From positions 1 to 32,706 of the forward strand of contig JAJFUE010000039.1 in NCBI GenBank assembly GCA_021372575.1: a stretch of DNA of 32,706 bases. The letters run 5' to 3'. The position numbers and the translations under genes were made by a program. Positions 4,969 through 28,042 of this stretch are shown one piece after another (positions within the stretch are counted from its first letter, which is position 1; every line of letters begins with the position of its first letter). Source of the stretch: a bacterium. Lineage in GTDB: Bacteria > Sumerlaeota > Sumerlaeia > MVZB01. Below the pieces are notes generated by a model. The model was not told where the DNA came from, ran no database searches, and saw nothing but the letters and a program-made list of their open reading frames with translations.

Positions 4969-5310
4969 ATGATTAAGATCGATATCGTCAAGAAAATCGC
5001 CACGAAGCTCGAGATCAAGGACCGCGAGGCGTTGTCGGTCGTTGATACGATCATCGACTCGATCAAGCAGTGCATCAAAGAGCACGACCGGATCGAGATC
5101 CGCAACTTCGGGGTGTTCCAGGTGAAGCAGCGCAAGCCGCGCACCGGCCGCAACCCGCGGAACAAAAAGGAATATCCGATCAAGCCGCGCAAGGTCGTGA
5201 CGTTCAAGCTCGGCAAGGAGCTCAAGGACTTCGCCCTCGAGCCGACGGCAAACGGGACTCCCGCAACCGAGCCGGTGGTCTCGCAGGGAAGCCCTGAGGC
5301 GACGGCGTGA
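4969..5310 (+). CDS. HU/IHF-family nucleoid DNA-binding protein
   Basis: This small basic protein binds and bends DNA as a dimer and helps organise the nucleoid. The first 90 residues fit the whole HU/IHF fold: the helical N-terminus (KIDIVKKIATKLEI), the beta-region IEIRNFGVFQVKQR, and the DNA-embracing arm with GRNPRNKKEYPIK. A further tail of about 20 residues, rich in T, P, E and S, is not part of the core fold. I chose the ATG at 4969 because GGGAGG (4953-4958) lies 10 bases upstream. An in-frame ATG at 4951 would absorb that Shine-Dalgarno into the coding region. The gene has its own promoter and is followed directly by the inverted heptamer repeat, with no recognisable terminator. Whether it is HU or IHF cannot be decided by eye. 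Confidence 0.95.
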   Translation: MIKIDIVKKIATKLEIKDREALSVVDTIIDSIKQCIKEHDRIEIRNFGVFQVKQRKPRTGRNPRNKKEYPIKPRKVVTFKLGKELKDFALEPTANGTPATEPVVSQGSPEATA

Positions 5311-5372
5311 GGAATCGTGGATCGTGGGGCGTGGGGCGTGAATCGTGGGACGTGGATCGTGGGTCGCATTCG
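5311..5372 (+). repeat. Left heptamer arm of the IVS-like cassette
   Basis: Seven consecutive 7-bp units run from 5314 to 5362: ATCGTGG twice, GGCGTGG, GGCGTGA, ATCGTGG, GACGTGG, ATCGTGG. GTCGC follows. Confidence 0.85.
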
Positions 5373-5400
5373 AATCTCATCTAAATAAGCCTATTTTGAG

Positions 5401-5772
5401 ATGGCATCCATCCAAGATTATCGCGATCTGGAAGTCTGGCAAAAATCAATCGAGTTGGCCTGTTCCATTCAGGAATATTCAAAGAATTTTCCGCGCGGGG
5501 AGATGTTCGGCCTAACCTCACAGATAAGAAGGGCGGCTGTATCGATCGCGGCGAACATCGCTGAAGGCTGCGAACGAAACTCGACCAAGGAATTCATTCA
5601 ATTTTTGGGATTTGCCCGCGGTTCAGCGGCAGAACTCGATACTCACGTCATCCTGGCGACCAGATTCGGTTACCTCGCACAATCGTAATCCGCCATCTTA
5701 GCTGACCAAATAAAGCGCATTCGAATGATGCTTTCCGCACTGGTGCGATCATTAAATCGCCGCGAATCGTGA
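5401..5772 (+). pseudogene. Four-helix-bundle (S23/IVS, bAvd-like) protein with internal stop
   Basis: The N-terminal 95 residues are typical of the four-helix-bundle family found in 23S rRNA intervening sequences: YRDLEVWQKSIELA, then FPRGEMFGLTSQIRRAAVSI, AANIAEGCER and GFARGSAAELDT. The frame stops at TAA 5686-5688, just after GYLAQS, about 28 residues short. Reading on in the same frame gives SAILADQIKRIRMMLSALVR up to TGA 5770-5772. That is the family's usual C-terminal helix (GYL, 16 positions, then ML and a basic end). The stop thus replaces one residue of an otherwise full-length 123-codon gene, with no frameshift. A single-base nonsense mutation is the simplest reading; a truncated working protein, a sequencing error or stop readthrough are alternatives. 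The Shine-Dalgarno is weak (TTGAG directly before ATG). Confidence 0.8.
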
Positions 5773-5865
5773 ATCGTTGATGCCAGAAAGCACGGACCTC
5801 AATCCGCGACCCACGGTTCACGGTATTCAAGTTACGATCCACGATTCACGATCCACCATTCACAA
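5764..5865 (-). repeat. Right heptamer arm of the IVS-like cassette
   Basis: Two direct GAATCGT units lie at 5764-5777. The main reverse-complement arm is 5803-5865, with TACGATC, CACGATT, CACGATC and CACCATT in register at 5833-5860. Confidence 0.8.
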
Positions 5866-5892
5866 TTTTTACTTTTTCGCCGCAAGTCGCTG

Positions 5893-6016: not shown

Positions 6017-7921
6017 ATGCATCTGCAATTGATCGACTGGGTCATTATCGTTGCGACGCTGGTGATCTGCTTCTTCCCCGCGCTGCTGTTCGGCAAGCGC
6101 GCTGGCAAGAACACGACCGAGTTCTTCGTATCGGGCCGCAGTGTGCCGTGGTGGCTGGCGGGCCTGTCGATGGTCGCGACCACGTTCAGCAGCGACACGC
6201 CGAACCTGGTCACCGACATCGTTCGGCGGCAGGGCGTGGCGGGCAACTGGTGCTGGTGGGCGTTCACGCTGACCGGCGTGGCGACGGTGTTCTTTTACGC
6301 GCGGCTGTGGCGCCGTTCGGGCGTCATGACGGACCTCGAGTTTTATGAGCTGCGCTACTCGGGCAAGGCCGCTTCGGTCGTGCGCGGGTTCCGCGCCGTC
6401 TATCTGGGCCTGTTCTTCAACTGCCTGATCATGGCGTCGGTGAACCTGGCCGCGTGCAAGATCGCGGCGATCCTGTTTGGCATCCCAATGTGGCAGACGC
6501 TCCTGTTTGTCGGCCTGCTGAACGTCGTCTTCGCGATGCACTCGGGCCTGTGGGGCGTGCTGGTCATCGACATGATCCAGTTCTTCATCAAGATGACGGC
6601 GGTGATCGCGGCGGCTTACTACGGCGTCAAGGCCGTGGGCGGCATGGACGTGCTGGTCGAGAAGCTCACCGCGCCGCAGCTTGCCCCCGACGGCGTCCAT
6701 ACGATTCATTTCCTGAACGTTCTGCCCGACTTTACGAATAACTGGGATTTGGCGCTTGCGATCTTCATCATGCCGATCGCGGTGCAGTGGTGGGCGGTCT
6801 GGTATCCGGGCGCGGAGCCGGGCGGCGGCAGCTACATCGCCCAGCGCATGCTGGCGTCGAAGTCGGAGAAGGATTCGCTCGGCGCGGTGCTGTTCTTCAA
6901 CGTCGCGCACTACGTGCTGCGGCCGTGGCCGTGGATCATCACCGGCCTTGCGTCGATGATCATCTACCCGCAGCTTTCCGACATTTCGAAGGAATTCCCG
7001 AACCTCGACAAACTCGGGGTCCCGCTGGGGCACGACCTCGGCTTCCCCGCGATGCTCAAGTTCCTCCCCGTGGGCATGGTCGGCCTGATGGTTGGCGGCC
7101 TGATCGCGGCCAACTCCTCGACGATCCTCACCCACCTGAACTGGGGATCCTCTTATTTGGTTCACGACTTCTATCAGCGCTTCCTGGTCAGGGGCAAAAG
7201 CGAAAAGCATTACGTGTGGGCGGGCCGTTTCTGCACGCTCGGGCTGTTCCTGATCTCGTCGGCGATGGTCTTTAAACTGGTCAGCGCCAAGGACACGTTC
7301 GACGTCGTCCTTCAAGTGGGCGCGGGCACCGGCCTGCTCTACCTGATCCGCTGGTTCTGGTGGAGGATCAATGCATGGTGCGAAGTCGTTGCGATGGTCA
7401 GCTCCTTTGCTGTCTCGCTCGTCTTTTTATGGATCAACAAAGAACACTCGCTTGCGGGCCTGCCCCCGATCAGCACCCACATCGCCCTGATCATCACGAT
7501 CCTGGTGACGACCGCGTGCTGGCTGGCGGCTGCCTACCTCGCTCCGCAGACCGACCGCAAGGCGCTGATCAACTTCTACAAGAAGGTGCGTCCGTTCGGG
7601 CCGGGTTGGGAAGCGGTCCGTCGCGAGGCGGGCATCTCCAAGGAGGAAGCCGGCGCGACTCACGAACACATTCCGCTGGCGCTGCTTGGCTGGTCCGCGG
7701 GCTGCGCGACCATCTGGTCGTCGCTGTTCACGATCGGCAACTTCCTCTATGGGCGTTGGACTGCTTTCTGGGGATGTTTGATTGTGTTCGTTGTCACCGG
7801 CCTGATCCTGATCAAGGTTGTCTCGATCCTGTGGGAGAACAGCACGGCGTCAGCAGCGGCTGACGAAGCGAGAGACCTTGCCGAAGCAGCAGCAGTCAAG
7901 CAGACGTCCAAGCGGAGCTGA
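6017..7921 (+). CDS. Sodium:solute symporter (SSS) family permease
   Basis: This inner-membrane transporter couples uptake of a solute to sodium. At 634 residues it has about 13-14 hydrophobic helices. The SSS core is clear: FFVSGRSVPWWLAG followed by LSMVATTFSSDTP (helix 1-2, sodium-site region), LEFYELRYSG, and an unwound-helix region around VGLMVGGLIAANSSTILTHLN. The C-terminus adds extra helices and a polar Ala/Glu tail. AGGAG (6003-6007) lies 9 bases before the ATG. Only two bases separate its stop from the next ATG, so it is co-transcribed with the GHMP kinase. That pairing suggests the substrate is a sugar phosphorylated after entry, possibly galactose or a related hexose. The substrate cannot be read from sequence. 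Confidence 0.93.
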   Translation: MHLQLIDWVIIVATLVICFFPALLFGKRAGKNTTEFFVSGRSVPWWLAGLSMVATTFSSDTPNLVTDIVRRQGVAGNWCWWAFTLTGVATVFFYARLWRRSGVMTDLEFYELRYSGKAASVVRGFRAVYLGLFFNCLIMASVNLAACKIAAILFGIPMWQTLLFVGLLNVVFAMHSGLWGVLVIDMIQFFIKMTAVIAAAYYGVKAVGGMDVLVEKLTAPQLAPDGVHTIHFLNVLPDFTNNWDLALAIFIMPIAVQWWAVWYPGAEPGGGSYIAQRMLASKSEKDSLGAVLFFNVAHYVLRPWPWIITGLASMIIYPQLSDISKEFPNLDKLGVPLGHDLGFPAMLKFLPVGMVGLMVGGLIAANSSTILTHLNWGSSYLVHDFYQRFLVRGKSEKHYVWAGRFCTLGLFLISSAMVFKLVSAKDTFDVVLQVGAGTGLLYLIRWFWWRINAWCEVVAMVSSFAVSLVFLWINKEHSLAGLPPISTHIALIITILVTTACWLAAAYLAPQTDRKALINFYKKVRPFGPGWEAVRREAGISKEEAGATHEHIPLALLGWSAGCATIWSSLFTIGNFLYGRWTAFWGCLIVFVVTGLILIKVVSILWENSTASAAADEARDLAEAAAVKQTSKRS

Positions 7922-10244: not shown

Positions 10245-10280
10245 CGATTACGATTACGATTACGATTACGAGCACGAGCA
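10245..10280 (+). repeat. Hexamer array, copy 1 (CGATTA x4, CGAGCA x2)
   Basis: Four CGATTA units are followed directly by two CGAGCA units. It lies about 60 bp past the 3' end of rtcB, a minus-strand gene. Copies 2 and 3 are at 12277 and 21343 in the same orientation. The rest of the gap from 10129 to 10343 shows no gene. A small CCGATA-AC-TATCGG palindrome at 10320-10333 lies next to the rtcB stop. Confidence 0.9.
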
Positions 10281-10343
10281 CCAGCCTACGCCAAGGCTTC
10301 GGCTGGCACGCCGAGCACGAACCGATAACTATCGGCAAACGCG

Positions 10344-12212: not shown

Positions 12213-12276
12213 CAAGATCCCCCTTTTTTGTTATTTTACCATGAATCGAGGGGTGAAAAGGATTCGTTTTGCTTTT

Positions 12277-12300
12277 CGATTACGATTACGAGCACGAGCA
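12277..12300 (+). repeat. Hexamer array, copy 2 (CGATTA x2, CGAGCA x2)
   Basis: Two CGATTA and two CGAGCA units overlap the 3' end of the O-antigen ligase gene. On the minus strand the array supplies the last codons and the TAA stop of that gene. Confidence 0.9.
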
Positions 12301-13857
12301 CGAATCAGAGCGCCTGTCCAGGGCCGAGGCGGCCCAGACGAGGGCGTAGGCCCAGATGAAGAAGGTCATCGAGCCGAAGTTCTGCTTGAGCATGTAGAAA
12401 TTCATGCCGGCGATGAGGAGGGCCAGCTCGAACGCGAGCCACGCGCCGGCCACGCCGCGGTCCGCGGGATTGGCGCGGCGCCAGGCAAGGAGGAGCGCGG
12501 CCCAGCGCACGATGCAGAAACCGAGAAGGGCAAGGCCGGCGGCGACGCCGCTTTCGGCCATCGTCTCAAGCCAGACGTTGTGCACGTGCTTCATTTCGTC
12601 GCTGCCGGAGAGGCTTTGCCGGGCGGCCTCGCTGCCCTCGGTGAAGACGTAGAGCTTGTAGGCGCGCTCGACGTTTTTGCGGCTGTAGCCGAGGCCGGAG
12701 AGGGGGTGTTCGCGGATCGACTGCAGGCTCCAGCCCCACGCCATGATGCGGGTTTTCATCGAGGTGAGCGGCGGCTGGTTGACCATGTAGGTCCGCGGAT
12801 CGAAGACGGTCTTCATTTGCTTGCTGAACGTGCTCGGGATCGCGATCGCGGCGATGACGGCAACCGCCACGGCCCCGATCAGGATGCGGCGCGAAATCGT
12901 CGCGATCCACACGAAGGCGCCGGCCATGGCGGCCATGGCGATGCCGCGCGTGTAGGTCTGCATGATGATCCAGAAGCCGGCGGCAGCCAGCGCGAAAGCC
13001 GCCCAACGCCGGCGCGGCACGGCGGCGGCGCGCGCGGCGACAAGCATCATCATCATCCCAAGCATCGCCCAGTAGGCGGTGCGGTTGAAATGGAGCATCG
13101 GGAACTCGATGCGGCGGCGCGGGATTTCCCAGCCGGCCCTCTCGGCCTTGGAGAAGACGAGATTCCAATCGACGAGCCTGGCGCGGATCGACGCCGGGCC
13201 GGCGAGGTCGATGATGTTGATCAACACCGAAATCACCATCAGCGCGCCGAAGACGCAGGCGATGGCGAGGCCGGTGTCGCGGAGGAAGTCTTTGTCGCGC
13301 TCGGCGGCGCGGGCCCAGCCGGCGATGAGCGCCATCGGCAGCGCGCGTTCCATCGTGAAGTCGCGGAGGACGTCGATCGGGCGCGGCGCCATGATCGCCG
13401 TCGCCAGGCAGATCATCGTGTAGATGATCAGCAGCTCCATCCCGAATGGCAGCCACGGTCCGCGGCGCGTTCCGTCAAGCCTGCGGACGGTCAGCATCGG
13501 CGCGCTCAGCCACAGGAACGAGGCCGTCAGATAAACCACCGTGAACGACTGGGGCATCTTAAGGCGTTCGAGGTGGCGGCGGCCTTCCTGAAAGATGACC
13601 TCGTGAAGGCCGTAGGCGCAGGCCACGGCGAAGCCGGCAAAGGCGGCCCCGAACAGGAGCCGGCGCCGCCAGTCGCCCTCGCGGTCGCCCAGGAGCATCG
13701 CCGCGACGGCCGCGCAGACCAGGTAGAATTGGATGTGCGAAATATTGAGGATTTTGGGCGAAATGGGACCGATCGCGTAATCGAGGCAGCCGCCGAGCGC
13801 CGCCAGAACGGTCAGGGCCAGCAGGATCGGGCGCGGTATTTGATACGGACCAGTCAT
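12286..13857 (-). CDS. O-antigen ligase / polymerase-like membrane protein
   Basis: This polytopic inner-membrane protein of 523 residues has about 11-13 hydrophobic helices and a large periplasmic loop. The loop contains GWSLQSIREHPLSGLGYS and, about 50 residues later, EMKHVHNVWLETMAESG. An Arg in a loop and a His-His/Asn-rich motif followed by Glu-Ser-Gly are the marks of the WaaL/Wzy (O-antigen ligase family) fold. Such proteins join or polymerise lipid-linked glycans at the periplasmic face. Ligase and polymerase cannot be told apart by eye. The C-terminal residues RRSDSCSCS are encoded by the hexamer repeat, so the original C-terminus was probably different. No other glycan gene lies next to it; the GT87 gene is 17 kb away. 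Confidence 0.82.
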   Translation of the reverse strand: MTGPYQIPRPILLALTVLAALGGCLDYAIGPISPKILNISHIQFYLVCAAVAAMLLGDREGDWRRRLLFGAAFAGFAVACAYGLHEVIFQEGRRHLERLKMPQSFTVVYLTASFLWLSAPMLTVRRLDGTRRGPWLPFGMELLIIYTMICLATAIMAPRPIDVLRDFTMERALPMALIAGWARAAERDKDFLRDTGLAIACVFGALMVISVLINIIDLAGPASIRARLVDWNLVFSKAERAGWEIPRRRIEFPMLHFNRTAYWAMLGMMMMLVAARAAAVPRRRWAAFALAAAGFWIIMQTYTRGIAMAAMAGAFVWIATISRRILIGAVAVAVIAAIAIPSTFSKQMKTVFDPRTYMVNQPPLTSMKTRIMAWGWSLQSIREHPLSGLGYSRKNVERAYKLYVFTEGSEAARQSLSGSDEMKHVHNVWLETMAESGVAAGLALLGFCIVRWAALLLAWRRANPADRGVAGAWLAFELALLIAGMNFYMLKQNFGSMTFFIWAYALVWAASALDRRSDSCSCS

Positions 13858-13905: not shown

Positions 13906-13933
13906 AGTCCTTAGTCCTTAGTCCTGAGTCCTG
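13906..13933. repeat. AGTCCTT/AGTCCTG heptamer array
   Basis: Two copies of AGTCCTT are followed by two of AGTCCTG, then a degenerate AGTTGGG. The period is exactly 7 bp. It lies upstream of both the O-antigen ligase gene (minus) and the small membrane protein gene (plus). Form and sequence recall the cyanobacterial STRR heptamers. Confidence 0.85.
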
Positions 13934-14049
13934 AGTTGGGGATGTTGATTCATTGACATTCAAGGGCGAATTCATGATTCTGGTGAATTGGGAAGAATAC
14001 CCGGATTTTCTCACCAGTTCTGATCGGTTGGCCAAGGGAGGTCAGTCCC

Positions 14050-21342: not shown

Positions 21343-21372
21343 CGATTACGATTACGATTACGAGCACGAGCA
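21343..21372 (+). repeat. Hexamer array, copy 3 (CGATTA x3, CGAGCA x2)
   Basis: Three CGATTA units and two CGAGCA units end 10 bases from the stop of the Memo-like gene (minus strand). Orientation relative to the gene is the same as in copies 1 and 2. Confidence 0.9.
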
Positions 21373-21381
21373 CGAAATTGA

Positions 21382-22891: not shown

Positions 22892-22927
22892 ATAGGTCTT
22901 ATAGGTCATATAGGTCTTATAGGCCTG
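22892..22927. repeat. ATAGGTCTT nonamer array
   Basis: Four 9-bp units, ATAGGTCTT, ATAGGTCAT, ATAGGTCTT and ATAGGCCTG, lie 62 bp upstream of the mqnD start. Confidence 0.85.
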
Positions 22928-22989
22928 ATTCGAATATGATACGATATCCGCGCTTGATGCATGGCGAAGCAACCGGTGGGAGTGGTTCC

Positions 22990-23935: not shown

Positions 23936-26900
23936 TTATTCATGTCGCAACCAATCGGAATGGGCCGCCGAGCGCTCGCCGGCCGGGCTCAACGCCGAAG
24001 TCGTCCGCCAGCACCTCAAATAATAGGATCTATTTCGTGTATAGTATTCGTGCACTCTGAGCATGTAATAACCTGTTACCGGCGGAGTATAGTCGATTAG
24101 GAAGTGGATGCCCTCCCCATCATTATCGTCCTGGGCCACAATCTGACCTGTAGAGTAATTGAACAAAGTGCCGTAGGTGTTGGCGGTGCCGGAAATGGAT
24201 TCGAACCTGACAGGCACGCCAGCCGTCAGTTTGACCTTGAACCAGTCGTAGCGGTCGATGGTTGAGAGCGTGAACAAGCCGAAGGTTTGCTCGGTGGTCG
24301 TCGGGTCGGGCAGCAGGTTCGCGAAGGCGAAGGTGTTATCCTTCGGATCCCACGCATCTTCACCGGCACCCGGAGTGATGGTGTGGCACTTTAGATAATA
24401 GGCGCAGGTGTTCCCGAGCGTTTTCGCGCGGATGCGGAGGAGATACTGGCCGGAAACCAAAGGCGTGAACGTCAGGCCGGCCTGGCCGCCGCCGGCGGAG
24501 TTGTCATCATAGCTGACGCAGATACCGGTCGAGTAGTTCATGAGCTCCATGTAGTTGTCGCCCGTGCCGGTCGTGTAGAAATAATAACGCGTGCCGGCGT
24601 TGAGCCTGGCCTTGAACCAGTCATAGCGGTCGGTGGAAGACAGCGTGAATTGGCCGAACGTCTGGTCGGATGCGGCCACGGCCGGCAATATATTCGGCGT
24701 GGCCCACGAGTCGTCGGTGGGGTCCCAGCCATCCCGGCCGGACGGAATCGTGACCGTGTTGTATTTCAGGTCGTAGGAACAGACGTTACCGAGCCTGGCG
24801 CCGCGAACGCGGACCCAGTAATTGCCGGTGACGAGCGGCGTGAACGTGACGCTGAACTGGCCGCTGCCGCCGGTGTTGTCATCGCTGGCCAGGCACCCGG
24901 CGCCGGTGGCGCTGATGATTTCGACATAATCATCCCCACTGCCGTCGATTGAGTTGAAATTTACCTTCACACCGGCGGTGAGGCTGATCTGGAACCAGTC
25001 GTATAGATCGGTAGCGGAGAGCGTATGCCCGGCATGGGACTGCTGGGTGCTCGTCGGCGGACTAAGGGGGGTCGGATGCGCCCAGGTGTCGTCGGTGGGA
25101 TCCCATTGGTCGCCAGAACCCAGCCCGATATCGTCATACCCAACAGCCGATTCCTGTGTCGCGTTCTTGACCTTGAAATAAACGCGCTTTGTGCCGATCG
25201 TCGGCGAAAGCGAAAATGTTGGGGCCGTCGCATAGGTCTTCCAAGTCGCTCCGCTGAAGCTCGATGACTCACTGGCCATGTAATGCGTCGGCCCGCCGGT
25301 ACAAGTATTATTCAACGTCACAACCGGATTCGTAGTTGATGGGCTTCCGTTGTTGATCGCGAAAGAATTGACCGTGAGTTGGTTTGTGAAAAGGCCTTTG
25401 TAGTATGCCCAGTTCCAATACTGTGATTGCGGATCGACCTTGTGATACAACCCGCCGCCATATGCGGGATTCGTTGGATCCGGAACTTGCAGGTGGCCGA
25501 TTATGCCCTGGCCGGCGGAAGGATCCGCAGGCTGCACTCCCGCAGGGAAGACAAGACTGATGCCATGACGCTGGGCAATGTTCTTCACCAATGCCGCCGA
25601 GCTGATGTATTGGGCATCCGTTATGTTATTAGTTCCATATCGCTCGTGTTCGATCCCGATGCTTCGCTTATTGTAAGGATAATTGCCGGCGTGATGAGCG
25701 GTGTCCCTTTCTCGGACCAGTTGGATGATGGATCCATCCATTCGAATAATATAATGGGCGCTGGCATGATCCGGGTCGTCTCCGTTCTGGAAACGTTGAA
25801 TCGCGCTATCCGCCGTCCCTTCAGTCGTGTGCAGAACGATCCACAGACATTCACCCTCCGGACGACCGACGGTAATATTCTCGTTGGCCGCCGGCACCCA
25901 TGTCGCTCCGGGGTAATCCACGCTGCTCGTATCGGCAATTGTAAAGTAATACGGCAACGTGAATGCACTCCAGCCGGACGCGTTTTTGGCGCGCATATTC
26001 CACTTGTATCGGTGCCCGTTAACCAGCGGCGCCCCCAGAGTGAGTTGCGTAACATTGCTAACGTTGTCGTTGTCAACGACAAGGACGTTTGTGTTGATAT
26101 CCCTGACGTAGAGTCCGTATCCGGTTGCCCCTGTCGAGGCACTCCACTTCATGGTCGGGGTTAGTGTCGTGATCTGTGAACCGGGACTGGTCGCGGTCCC
26201 CGGCGAAACAAGAGTCGGCGGCAAAGGCGATGTTTGTGAAGCCGGCCGATGCGCATTAATAAAGTCCGTGGGGCAATAATAAAGCGCGGCGACCTGGGCC
26301 TTCGTCAAACCCGTGACATAAGCATCCGGAGCCCGATCGGTTTTGCGAACTTCGAAGTGCAGGTGAGCCCAATACTGGTTATTGTAGCCTTTTCCAATCG
26401 TTCCAATCTGGTCGCCACGGACGACCGTATTCCCGACGGATTTCATTCTCGTCTGCAAATGGGCGTATTGGGTCCAGACGTTACCCCCGCCTGACAACTC
26501 ATGCCGGATGACAATAATGTTCCCCCAGCCACCCTGATAATCCGCTGATGCGGTCACGATTCCATCGCCGGCGGCATAGACGGGGTCGCCGAGATCGCTA
26601 TCGCCGCCCCCATTGCCATTCCAATCCTCGCCGGGATGGAATACCGGATTGTTTTGACCATCGGTCCATTCCAGGAAATCCCAGCCGACAGTATGGTTGT
26701 AGCCGGATCCATCCGGTTTTCCGACCGGAAAATCAAACCCACCCACGAGTACCTCGGCTGGCGCCTGGAAATAAAGTCTGGATGAGAAATTACTCCAGCC
26801 AGCGCTGTTCTTGGCCCGCATATTCCATTTGTAGGCACGCCTCGCCTGAAGCGTTCCCAACGGCAGGGTCAGTTGAGTGACATTCGCAACATTGTCATTG

Positions 26901-28042
26901 TCGTAAACCAATGCAGCAGTCGCAACATCTTCCACATAGAGACCGTAACCCGTGGCCCCGCTCGAGGCGCTCCACTTCATTGAAGGGATCAATGTCGTCA
27001 ATATGGGGCCGGGACTGGCCGCCGTGCCCGGCGAACCAAGAACCGGCGGCGGAGGGACAACACCCTGGGTCTGAAAATAGAGCCTGGATGAAAAATTACT
27101 CCAGCCGGCACTGTTCTTGGCCCGCATATTCCATTTGTAGGCACGCCCCGCCTGAAGCGTTCCCCCAGGCAGCGTTAGTTGAGTCACATTGGCAAGATTA
27201 TCATTGTCATAGACCAATGCAGCTGTCGCCACATCTTCAACGTACAGTCCATAACCAGTGGCCCCGCTCGATGCGCTCCACTGCATGGTTGGAGTCAATG
27301 ACGAGATCTGGGGTCCGGGACTCGAACTGGAACCCGGCGAGCTCAGAGTCGGCGGGGACGGGACGACACCTTGTGTCTGGAAATAAAAACGAGACGAATA
27401 GCTGCCCCAGCCGGCGCTGTTCTTGGCCCGCATGTTCCATCTATAGGCGCGCCCCGCCTGAAGCGTCCCCGAGGGCAACGTCAAATGAGTCACATTGGAG
27501 ACGTAATCGTTGTCGTAAACCAAATTACCAGTGGACACGTCTGAAACATAGAGGCCATAGCCCGTGGCTCCAGTCGAGGCGCTCCAATACATGGTTGGAG
27601 TCAGCGAGGTGATCAGAGGCCCGGGGCTCGAACTGGACCCCGGAGAAGTCAAATCGGGCGGGTCCGGAACACCGCCTTGCGTCTGGAAATACAAACGGGA
27701 CGAAAACCCGCTCCAACCGAGAGAGTCTTTTGCCCGCATGTTCCATCTGTATGCGTGCCCCGCCTGAAGAGTCCCCGAAGGCAAAGTCAGATGAGTCACG
27801 TTGGAGACGCTATCATTATCGTAAACCAAATTGCCAGTGGCCACATCGGCCACATAGAGGCCATAGCCCGTGGCTCCGCTCGAGGCGCTCCAGTACATTG
27901 TCGGGGTCAGTGTAGAAATCTGAGGCCCGGGACTCGAACTTGATCCCGGTGAGCTCAGCACCGGTGGATTTATCGCGAACACACTTGTACACAAAATAAA
28001 TAAGAACACAGGAATACACATTAAAAGACCTTTCTCTCTCAT
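23936..28042 (-). CDS. Secreted bifunctional peptidoglycan hydrolase (M23 peptidase plus amidase) with repeat domains
   Basis: A signal peptide (1-23, ending SVFA) precedes four 102-residue beta-sandwich repeats of FnIII-like type (26 to about 431). Next is an M23 metallopeptidase (about 440-600) with HPGEDWNGNGGGD (His467, Asp471) and HLHFEV near 557-562. A fifth repeat spans about 606-706. An amidase_2 domain (about 715-880) has LHTTEG (His736), the SIGIEHERYG strand, GHLQVPD and VDPQ as likely zinc ligands. A small beta domain and three pre-peptidase C-terminal (PPC) domains starting near 985, 1111 and 1237 complete it. M23 enzymes cut peptide crosslinks and amidase_2 enzymes cut the sugar-peptide bond, so one protein could open the wall at two places. 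GGAGG lies 6 bases before ATG 28042. The gene is clearly less GC-rich than its neighbours and monocistronic. The target, own wall or that of other bacteria, is unknown. Confidence 0.9.
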   Translation of the reverse strand: MREKGLLMCIPVFLFILCTSVFAINPPVLSSPGSSSSPGPQISTLTPTMYWSASSGATGYGLYVADVATGNLVYDNDSVSNVTHLTLPSGTLQAGHAYRWNMRAKDSLGWSGFSSRLYFQTQGGVPDPPDLTSPGSSSSPGPLITSLTPTMYWSASTGATGYGLYVSDVSTGNLVYDNDYVSNVTHLTLPSGTLQAGRAYRWNMRAKNSAGWGSYSSRFYFQTQGVVPSPPTLSSPGSSSSPGPQISSLTPTMQWSASSGATGYGLYVEDVATAALVYDNDNLANVTQLTLPGGTLQAGRAYKWNMRAKNSAGWSNFSSRLYFQTQGVVPPPPVLGSPGTAASPGPILTTLIPSMKWSASSGATGYGLYVEDVATAALVYDNDNVANVTQLTLPLGTLQARRAYKWNMRAKNSAGWSNFSSRLYFQAPAEVLVGGFDFPVGKPDGSGYNHTVGWDFLEWTDGQNNPVFHPGEDWNGNGGGDSDLGDPVYAAGDGIVTASADYQGGWGNIIVIRHELSGGGNVWTQYAHLQTRMKSVGNTVVRGDQIGTIGKGYNNQYWAHLHFEVRKTDRAPDAYVTGLTKAQVAALYYCPTDFINAHRPASQTSPLPPTLVSPGTATSPGSQITTLTPTMKWSASTGATGYGLYVRDINTNVLVVDNDNVSNVTQLTLGAPLVNGHRYKWNMRAKNASGWSAFTLPYYFTIADTSSVDYPGATWVPAANENITVGRPEGECLWIVLHTTEGTADSAIQRFQNGDDPDHASAHYIIRMDGSIIQLVRERDTAHHAGNYPYNKRSIGIEHERYGTNNITDAQYISSAALVKNIAQRHGISLVFPAGVQPADPSAGQGIIGHLQVPDPTNPAYGGGLYHKVDPQSQYWNWAYYKGLFTNQLTVNSFAINNGSPSTTNPVVTLNNTCTGGPTHYMASESSSFSGATWKTYATAPTFSLSPTIGTKRVYFKVKNATQESAVGYDDIGLGSGDQWDPTDDTWAHPTPLSPPTSTQQSHAGHTLSATDLYDWFQISLTAGVKVNFNSIDGSGDDYVEIISATGAGCLASDDNTGGSGQFSVTFTPLVTGNYWVRVRGARLGNVCSYDLKYNTVTIPSGRDGWDPTDDSWATPNILPAVAASDQTFGQFTLSSTDRYDWFKARLNAGTRYYFYTTGTGDNYMELMNYSTGICVSYDDNSAGGGQAGLTFTPLVSGQYLLRIRAKTLGNTCAYYLKCHTITPGAGEDAWDPKDNTFAFANLLPDPTTTEQTFGLFTLSTIDRYDWFKVKLTAGVPVRFESISGTANTYGTLFNYSTGQIVAQDDNDGEGIHFLIDYTPPVTGYYMLRVHEYYTRNRSYYLRCWRTTSALSPAGERSAAHSDWLRHE
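26750..27967 (-). repeat. Four tandem 306-bp coding repeats in the hydrolase gene
   Basis: Each unit encodes about 102 residues. All carry the landmarks SPG, SGATGYGLYV, LVYDND, LTLP and WNMRAK. Adjacent units are very similar even at DNA level, which points to recent duplication and gene-conversion potential. A fifth, more diverged copy lies after the M23 domain at about 25925-26225. Confidence 0.85.

Follow-up and report, generated by a model that had tools for sequence, protein, structure and literature searches.

We report that a four-helix-bundle (4HB) gene with inverted heptamer arms, found in the window (the whole 32,706-nt stretch of contig JAJFUE010000039.1 from a Sumerlaeota bacterium that was analysed), is probably a decayed copy of a bacteria-wide mobile DNA element, in which a 4HB/S23 gene lies between inverted arrays of a 6-9 nt word and dispersal is guided by the protein. 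Such elements apparently constitute a class of mobile DNA undescribed so far, and they may account for the heptamer repeats that cyanobacteria and other bacteria carry and that have so far lacked an explanation. With them come a candidate protein and a testable protein-to-word code that bear on these repeats, on where rRNA intervening sequences (IVSs) come from and on what a very common but uncharacterised protein family does. DNA recognition of a new kind would be at work if a small protein read a short tandem word in a lineage-specific way.

The element in the window

The 4HB ORF (5401-5688, + strand, 95 aa) belongs to the 23S_rRNA_IVP family, with a PF05635 match at E 6.7e-35 in the domain search and a TIGR02436 score of 110 bits (cut-off 24). 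It is ended early by a TAA at 5686-5688; the same frame continues over 5689-5772 (+ strand), with in-frame family homology reaching 5736, and the unbroken frame would stop at the TGA at 5770-5772, within the right-hand repeats. Because homology and frame run on past the TAA, the gene here is either truncated or a pseudogene. The left arm, a degenerate ATCGTGR/GNCGTGG heptamer array (5312-5367, + strand) seen by TRF, the inverted-repeat search and the array detector, begins 2 bases past the stop codon of an HU/IHF-like gene ending at 5310. The right arm, an inverted heptamer array (TTCACGATCCACGATTC...) at 5806-5867 (- strand), was seen by TRF and the inverted-repeat search, which also gave an extra heptamer block in left-arm sense (GAATCGTGAATCGTTGAT; 5764-5781, + strand). 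A sodium:solute symporter (SSF) gene follows at 6017.

The inverted-repeat search paired 56 nt of each arm (5312-5367 with 5806-5861) at 71% complementarity, so the 4HB gene between inverted heptamer arms described by the first-pass annotation is confirmed. Its remark that the arms agree strongly near both ends was right only in part: the longest exact match is 14 nt (5312-5325 versus 5834-5847), yet it lies two units out of register. With its in-frame TAA and 71% complementary arms the copy is worn. The Smith-Waterman arm score of 33 was reached by none of 2000 shuffles, and the score in direct orientation was 16; the 99th percentile among 211 ORFs of the same genome, a set that includes the window ORF and one other 4HB gene, was 32.6. 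The arms are real, but a single copy near the noise is suggestive alone, and it is the family-wide pattern that carries the case. No target duplication was visible at the window element and no empty site was found, the neighbouring genes not being syntenic in relatives.

Armed 4HB genes across bacteria

Inverted short-period arms, counted from an arm score of at least 30, flanked 77 of 89 4HB loci, of which 80 came from a single scan across named bacterial genomes and 9 from cyanobacterial plasmids. Of the 183 other ORFs in these loci, 7 had such arms (Fisher p 5e-46), and some of these seven share the word of the 4HB element. Among the 77 armed loci, 76 had a repeat period of 7 or 14, and the same pattern was found in a gammaproteobacterial set, in six further genomes and in relatives of the same class, most of which were armed. 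ORF controls and shuffles ruled out chance or low complexity as the source of the arms. The idea was exposed to refutation if other 4HB genes lacked arms or if arms were equally common around unrelated genes; nearly all 4HB genes carry them, they are rare elsewhere, and the idea stands on both counts.

The window's genome has nine PF05635 matches. The 4HB genes read there are each surrounded by inverted arrays whose word differs by element, namely ATCGTGR, AGTCCTK/AGTGCTG, GATGAAA, AAATTCG/TTCGGAT and hexamers (CGATTA, CGAGCA), with a nonamer, ATGGGACCT, at L008. The suffix-type locus L009 has an inverted nonamer pair on one side of the gene only, and L007 is interrupted by the contig end. In two other suffix-domain 4HB genes, nonamer-type repeats lie inside the ORF, encoding SISSIESISSI between the domains in L053 (1411-2106) and present as ADQTDQTDQTDQT in L055 (1423-2331); an array has therefore become coding sequence. 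Oligosphaera ethanolica carries long nonamer arrays of alternating orientation (L230, 2774-3382; L288, past the gene), of the GATCGGTCC type and, beside a suffix-type 4HB gene, ACCCAGTGG/TGTCCACAC.

The word follows the protein

Across 103 loci, similarity of the array word rises with identity of the 4HB protein (Mantel rho 0.52, against at most 0.25 in permutations), and the reverse-complement control is flat (rho 0.06); the word is orientation-specific. The correlation persists in pairs from different host groups (rank rho 0.51, against at most 0.17 in permutations). Pairs matched for protein identity look the same whether or not they share a host, a comparison that rejects host-driven words. 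Word and orientation are thus shown to track the 4HB protein, not the host. L030-like proteins from many phyla go with AGTGGNN and close variants, hexamers occur in one protein clade (L004, L050, L281), nonamers in the suffix-domain type and octamers in a Nostoc clade. Within the window's genome, a word is shared only by two 4HB proteins that are 71% identical. The two arms of a unit keep in step although words change quickly: the left arm of an element matches its own right arm at 0.71, far above the 0.27 at which it matches arms of elements with related proteins. The sample contained no Xanthomonas genome in which the flanks of XCC0516 could be compared with GGGAATC arrays; support from this side is only indirect, through the L192 protein, which is 58% identical and has AGGGAAT arms.

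Bare arrays match resident elements

A 326-kb sample of the window's genome contained 76 short-period arrays against none in a Markov control. Among the 68 gene-less arrays, 57 match the arms of the eight resident 4HB elements; for the same 68, only 7 match the 38 arms of relatives and 9 the 154 arms from elsewhere. Three units of ATCGTGR have 160 matches genome-wide, and the foreign word AGTGGYY has none. GGTGANN, meant as a reversed-pattern control, proved to be among the genuine words of these elements. The hexamer block has 265 genome matches on both strands, in which (CGATTA)n is always followed by (CGAGCA)n, and this constant order suggests that arrays are copied whole and do not arise by local slippage. 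An inverted partner is missing from most solo arrays.

The window itself illustrates this repertoire. TRF detected a gene-less hairpin of inverted AAATTCG/TTCGGAT arrays (2285-2411, unstranded) with the word of the resident element L006, and the array detector found solo arrays on the + strand: AAAGATG heptamers (73-103), the word of L005; three (CGATTA)n(CGAGCA)n hexamer arrays (10245-10285, 12274-12303 and 21343-21375), the words of L004; AGTCCTK heptamers (13906-13936), the word of L002/L003; and ATAGGTCTT nonamers (22892-22929), the word of the suffix-type locus L009.

Arrays were absent from 600 kb sampled in three related genomes without PF05635, and four genomes with 4HB genes had 125 arrays in about 915 kb sampled; these counts are raw, the coding filter being too strict. 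Within one class, 21 of 29 carriers of either of two array words were 4HB-positive, compared with 45 of 274 genomes overall (p 5e-13), an association partly confounded by phylogeny and assembly quality.

Filled and empty sites

A unit lies between two genes on a Trichormus variabilis plasmid at a site that is 98% identical, and empty, on a Nostoc linckia plasmid. The empty site reads AAAAAGTAATTAACAAAT and the filled one AAAAAGTAAT, unit, GTAATTAACAAAT, a clean junction with a 5-bp target duplication, GTAAT, outside the arms. The same split match occurs in further plasmids, and other plasmids hold a truncated gene remnant at this site, and also a gene-less hairpin with the same word. At a second cyanobacterial plasmid site TTCTA is consistent with a 5-bp target duplication; both sites come from related cyanobacterial elements. 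At the arm boundaries of 118 loci, duplicated 4-mers exceed shuffles (50 vs 35) and 5-mers do not, an overall weak signal that may reflect age or ill-defined ends. Filled and empty states are also visible at sites C, D, F and L303, where the junctions are not clean. Units also lie inside nrd and CRISPR operons, between nrdB and nrdA (on the opposite strand), cas6 and cas4, and cmr2 and cmr3, and empty counterparts exist for the nrd and cmr insertions. The presence/absence pattern could in principle arise instead from precise loss.

The 4HB elements between cas6/cas4 or cmr2/cmr3 are those of L139 (1501-1869), L143 (1492-1851) and L144 (1501-1857). The octamer-armed 4HB element of L303 (about 1217-2405) is situated in a dispersed intergenic repeat of Nostoc plasmids, and copies of this repeat occur with and without the element (L303; L305, L306, L307).

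Proposed mechanism

We hypothesize that the pentameric 4HB protein binds DNA at its own word, unit after unit along each arm. Bound there, it would hold the two ends of the unit together, or license them, so that the unit can be copied or inserted with a short target duplication of about 5 bp. Bare arrays and gene-less hairpins would not be autonomous; they would be copies mobilised in trans, in the way that RAYTs move REPs, so that the 4HB protein would drive, or license, the dispersal of both gene-bearing units and bare arrays. In the solved structure of the family, XCC0516 (2GSC), five four-helix bundles form a ring (PMC4990558), and it would fit naturally that a multimer reads the word over and over along an arm. 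A bolder version, which we put forward tentatively and at somewhat less than even chances, is that a pentameric 4HB protein with no known recombinase reads the word and, by its own catalysis or templating, spreads the element and hundreds of bare arrays, one word per protein lineage, and that this accounts for most bacterial 6-9-nt tandem repeats and for the origin of the rRNA IVSs.

It is unlikely, though worth keeping in mind, that another enzyme (e.g., a host transposase or a repair process) moves the arrays and that the 4HB protein is a passenger or an array-binding regulator, for example in silencing or organising. The domain search of the element found the 4HB domain only and no recombinase or nuclease domain of known type. 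The 4HB fold has no known catalysis, and its PF05635-like relative Avd is an accessory protein in the copying driven by diversity-generating retroelements (PMC10053308). The many unpaired solo arrays also favour this explanation. Against it, the choice of word and period goes with the 4HB protein even between host groups, and no array turned up in the sampled genomes that lack 4HB genes; the 4HB protein is therefore at least a specificity factor.

DNA or RNA recognition

The first-pass annotation compared the arms to the recognition stem of rRNA IVSs, and a free-standing IVS-like RNA element, in which the stem formed by the arms in a transcript is cut out by RNase III and insertions in operons are harmless, would agree with it. 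The protein family is common to rRNA IVSs, and the IVS of Coxiella has a 28-bp terminal stem cleaved by RNase III (PMC4990558). The RNA fold proposed as a check came out in favour of such a stem for this copy, where 5280-5890 folds better than shuffles (z = -2.9, 20 shuffles). Selection for RNA pairing should favour G-U-compatible mismatches between the arms, but across 101 loci 99 mismatches were G-U-compatible and 104 were not (p 0.78), which favours DNA recognition and led us to reject an RNA stem as the main account. Combined with solo arrays that lack a partner and with an element inserted antisense in an nrd operon, this absence of bias argues for action at the DNA level and makes the RNA element improbable, and with it the recognition stem. 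The arms of 4HB elements are probably recognised as DNA, unlike those of rRNA IVSs.

Least probable of all, and very improbable, is an origin of the arrays by slippage or other local processes with 4HB genes inserting in or beside them, which would suit the variable copy number in close elements (L141 and L150 differ by 14 nt) but not arms that are inverted rather than direct, a word that tracks the protein across host groups, a 5-bp duplication outside the arms or the invariable block order of the hexamer matches.

Relation to known systems

The rRNA IVSs have been proposed to be mobile, with the ORF needed for mobility and their origin left open (PMC4990558). The elements described here share with those of Leptospira and Coxiella an S23p/PF05635 ORF, complementary ends around the gene and a long-suspected mobility. 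They differ in sitting between protein genes (the window copy is not in an rRNA gene), in ends made of tandem short-word arrays, in showing no sign of selection for RNA pairing and in having dispersed bare arrays. The family-wide pattern supports the earlier suggestion that the IVS gene has a free-standing mobile relative whose ends are tandem heptamers.

The proposed link between STRR-like repeats and a candidate protein also gained support. Intergenic tandem heptamers, often G-rich and some in inverted pairs, have been described in cyanobacteria, Xanthomonas and Beggiatoaceae with no protein linked to them (PMC4692102, PMC4679880). The intergenic elements of Nostocales plasmids resemble STRR/heptamer repeats in having heptamer (and octamer) arms, a likeness at the level of repeat type. 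Heptamer repeats have been reported since about 1990, and we know of no maker of them. No paper joining the 4HB family to heptamer repeats was found in the literature searched, which left most subscription papers and all bioRxiv preprints outside, and priority is not certain.

Like the REP/REPIN system with its RAYT, one protein-coding master is accompanied by many gene-less matching relatives in the genome (here 57/68). RAYTs are tyrosine (HUH) transposases and REPs single palindromes, whereas the present system combines a 4HB protein with tandem 6-9-mer arrays, and no HUH (Y1) transposase domain was found in the element. Avd of the diversity-generating retroelements has the same fold as 4HB proteins, but no reverse transcriptase or template/variable repeat is annotated beside the plasmid loci viewed. 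Set against DNA transposons and MITEs, the filled and empty sites give one clean duplication (GTAAT) and one consistent case (TTCTA), with a weak signal over all loci, and no transposase domain of a known type came out of the domain search of the unit. Foldback (FB) transposons of Drosophila likewise have long inverted ends composed of tandem short repeats, but are eukaryotic, with longer repeat units and unrelated proteins.

Two further repeats were of other kinds. In L021 (5127-6832), an ORF between 73-nt inverted repeats without a short period resembles an ordinary insertion sequence, and the window contains a tandem repeat at 26761-27949 with a 306-bp unit, 3.9 copies and 77% matches.
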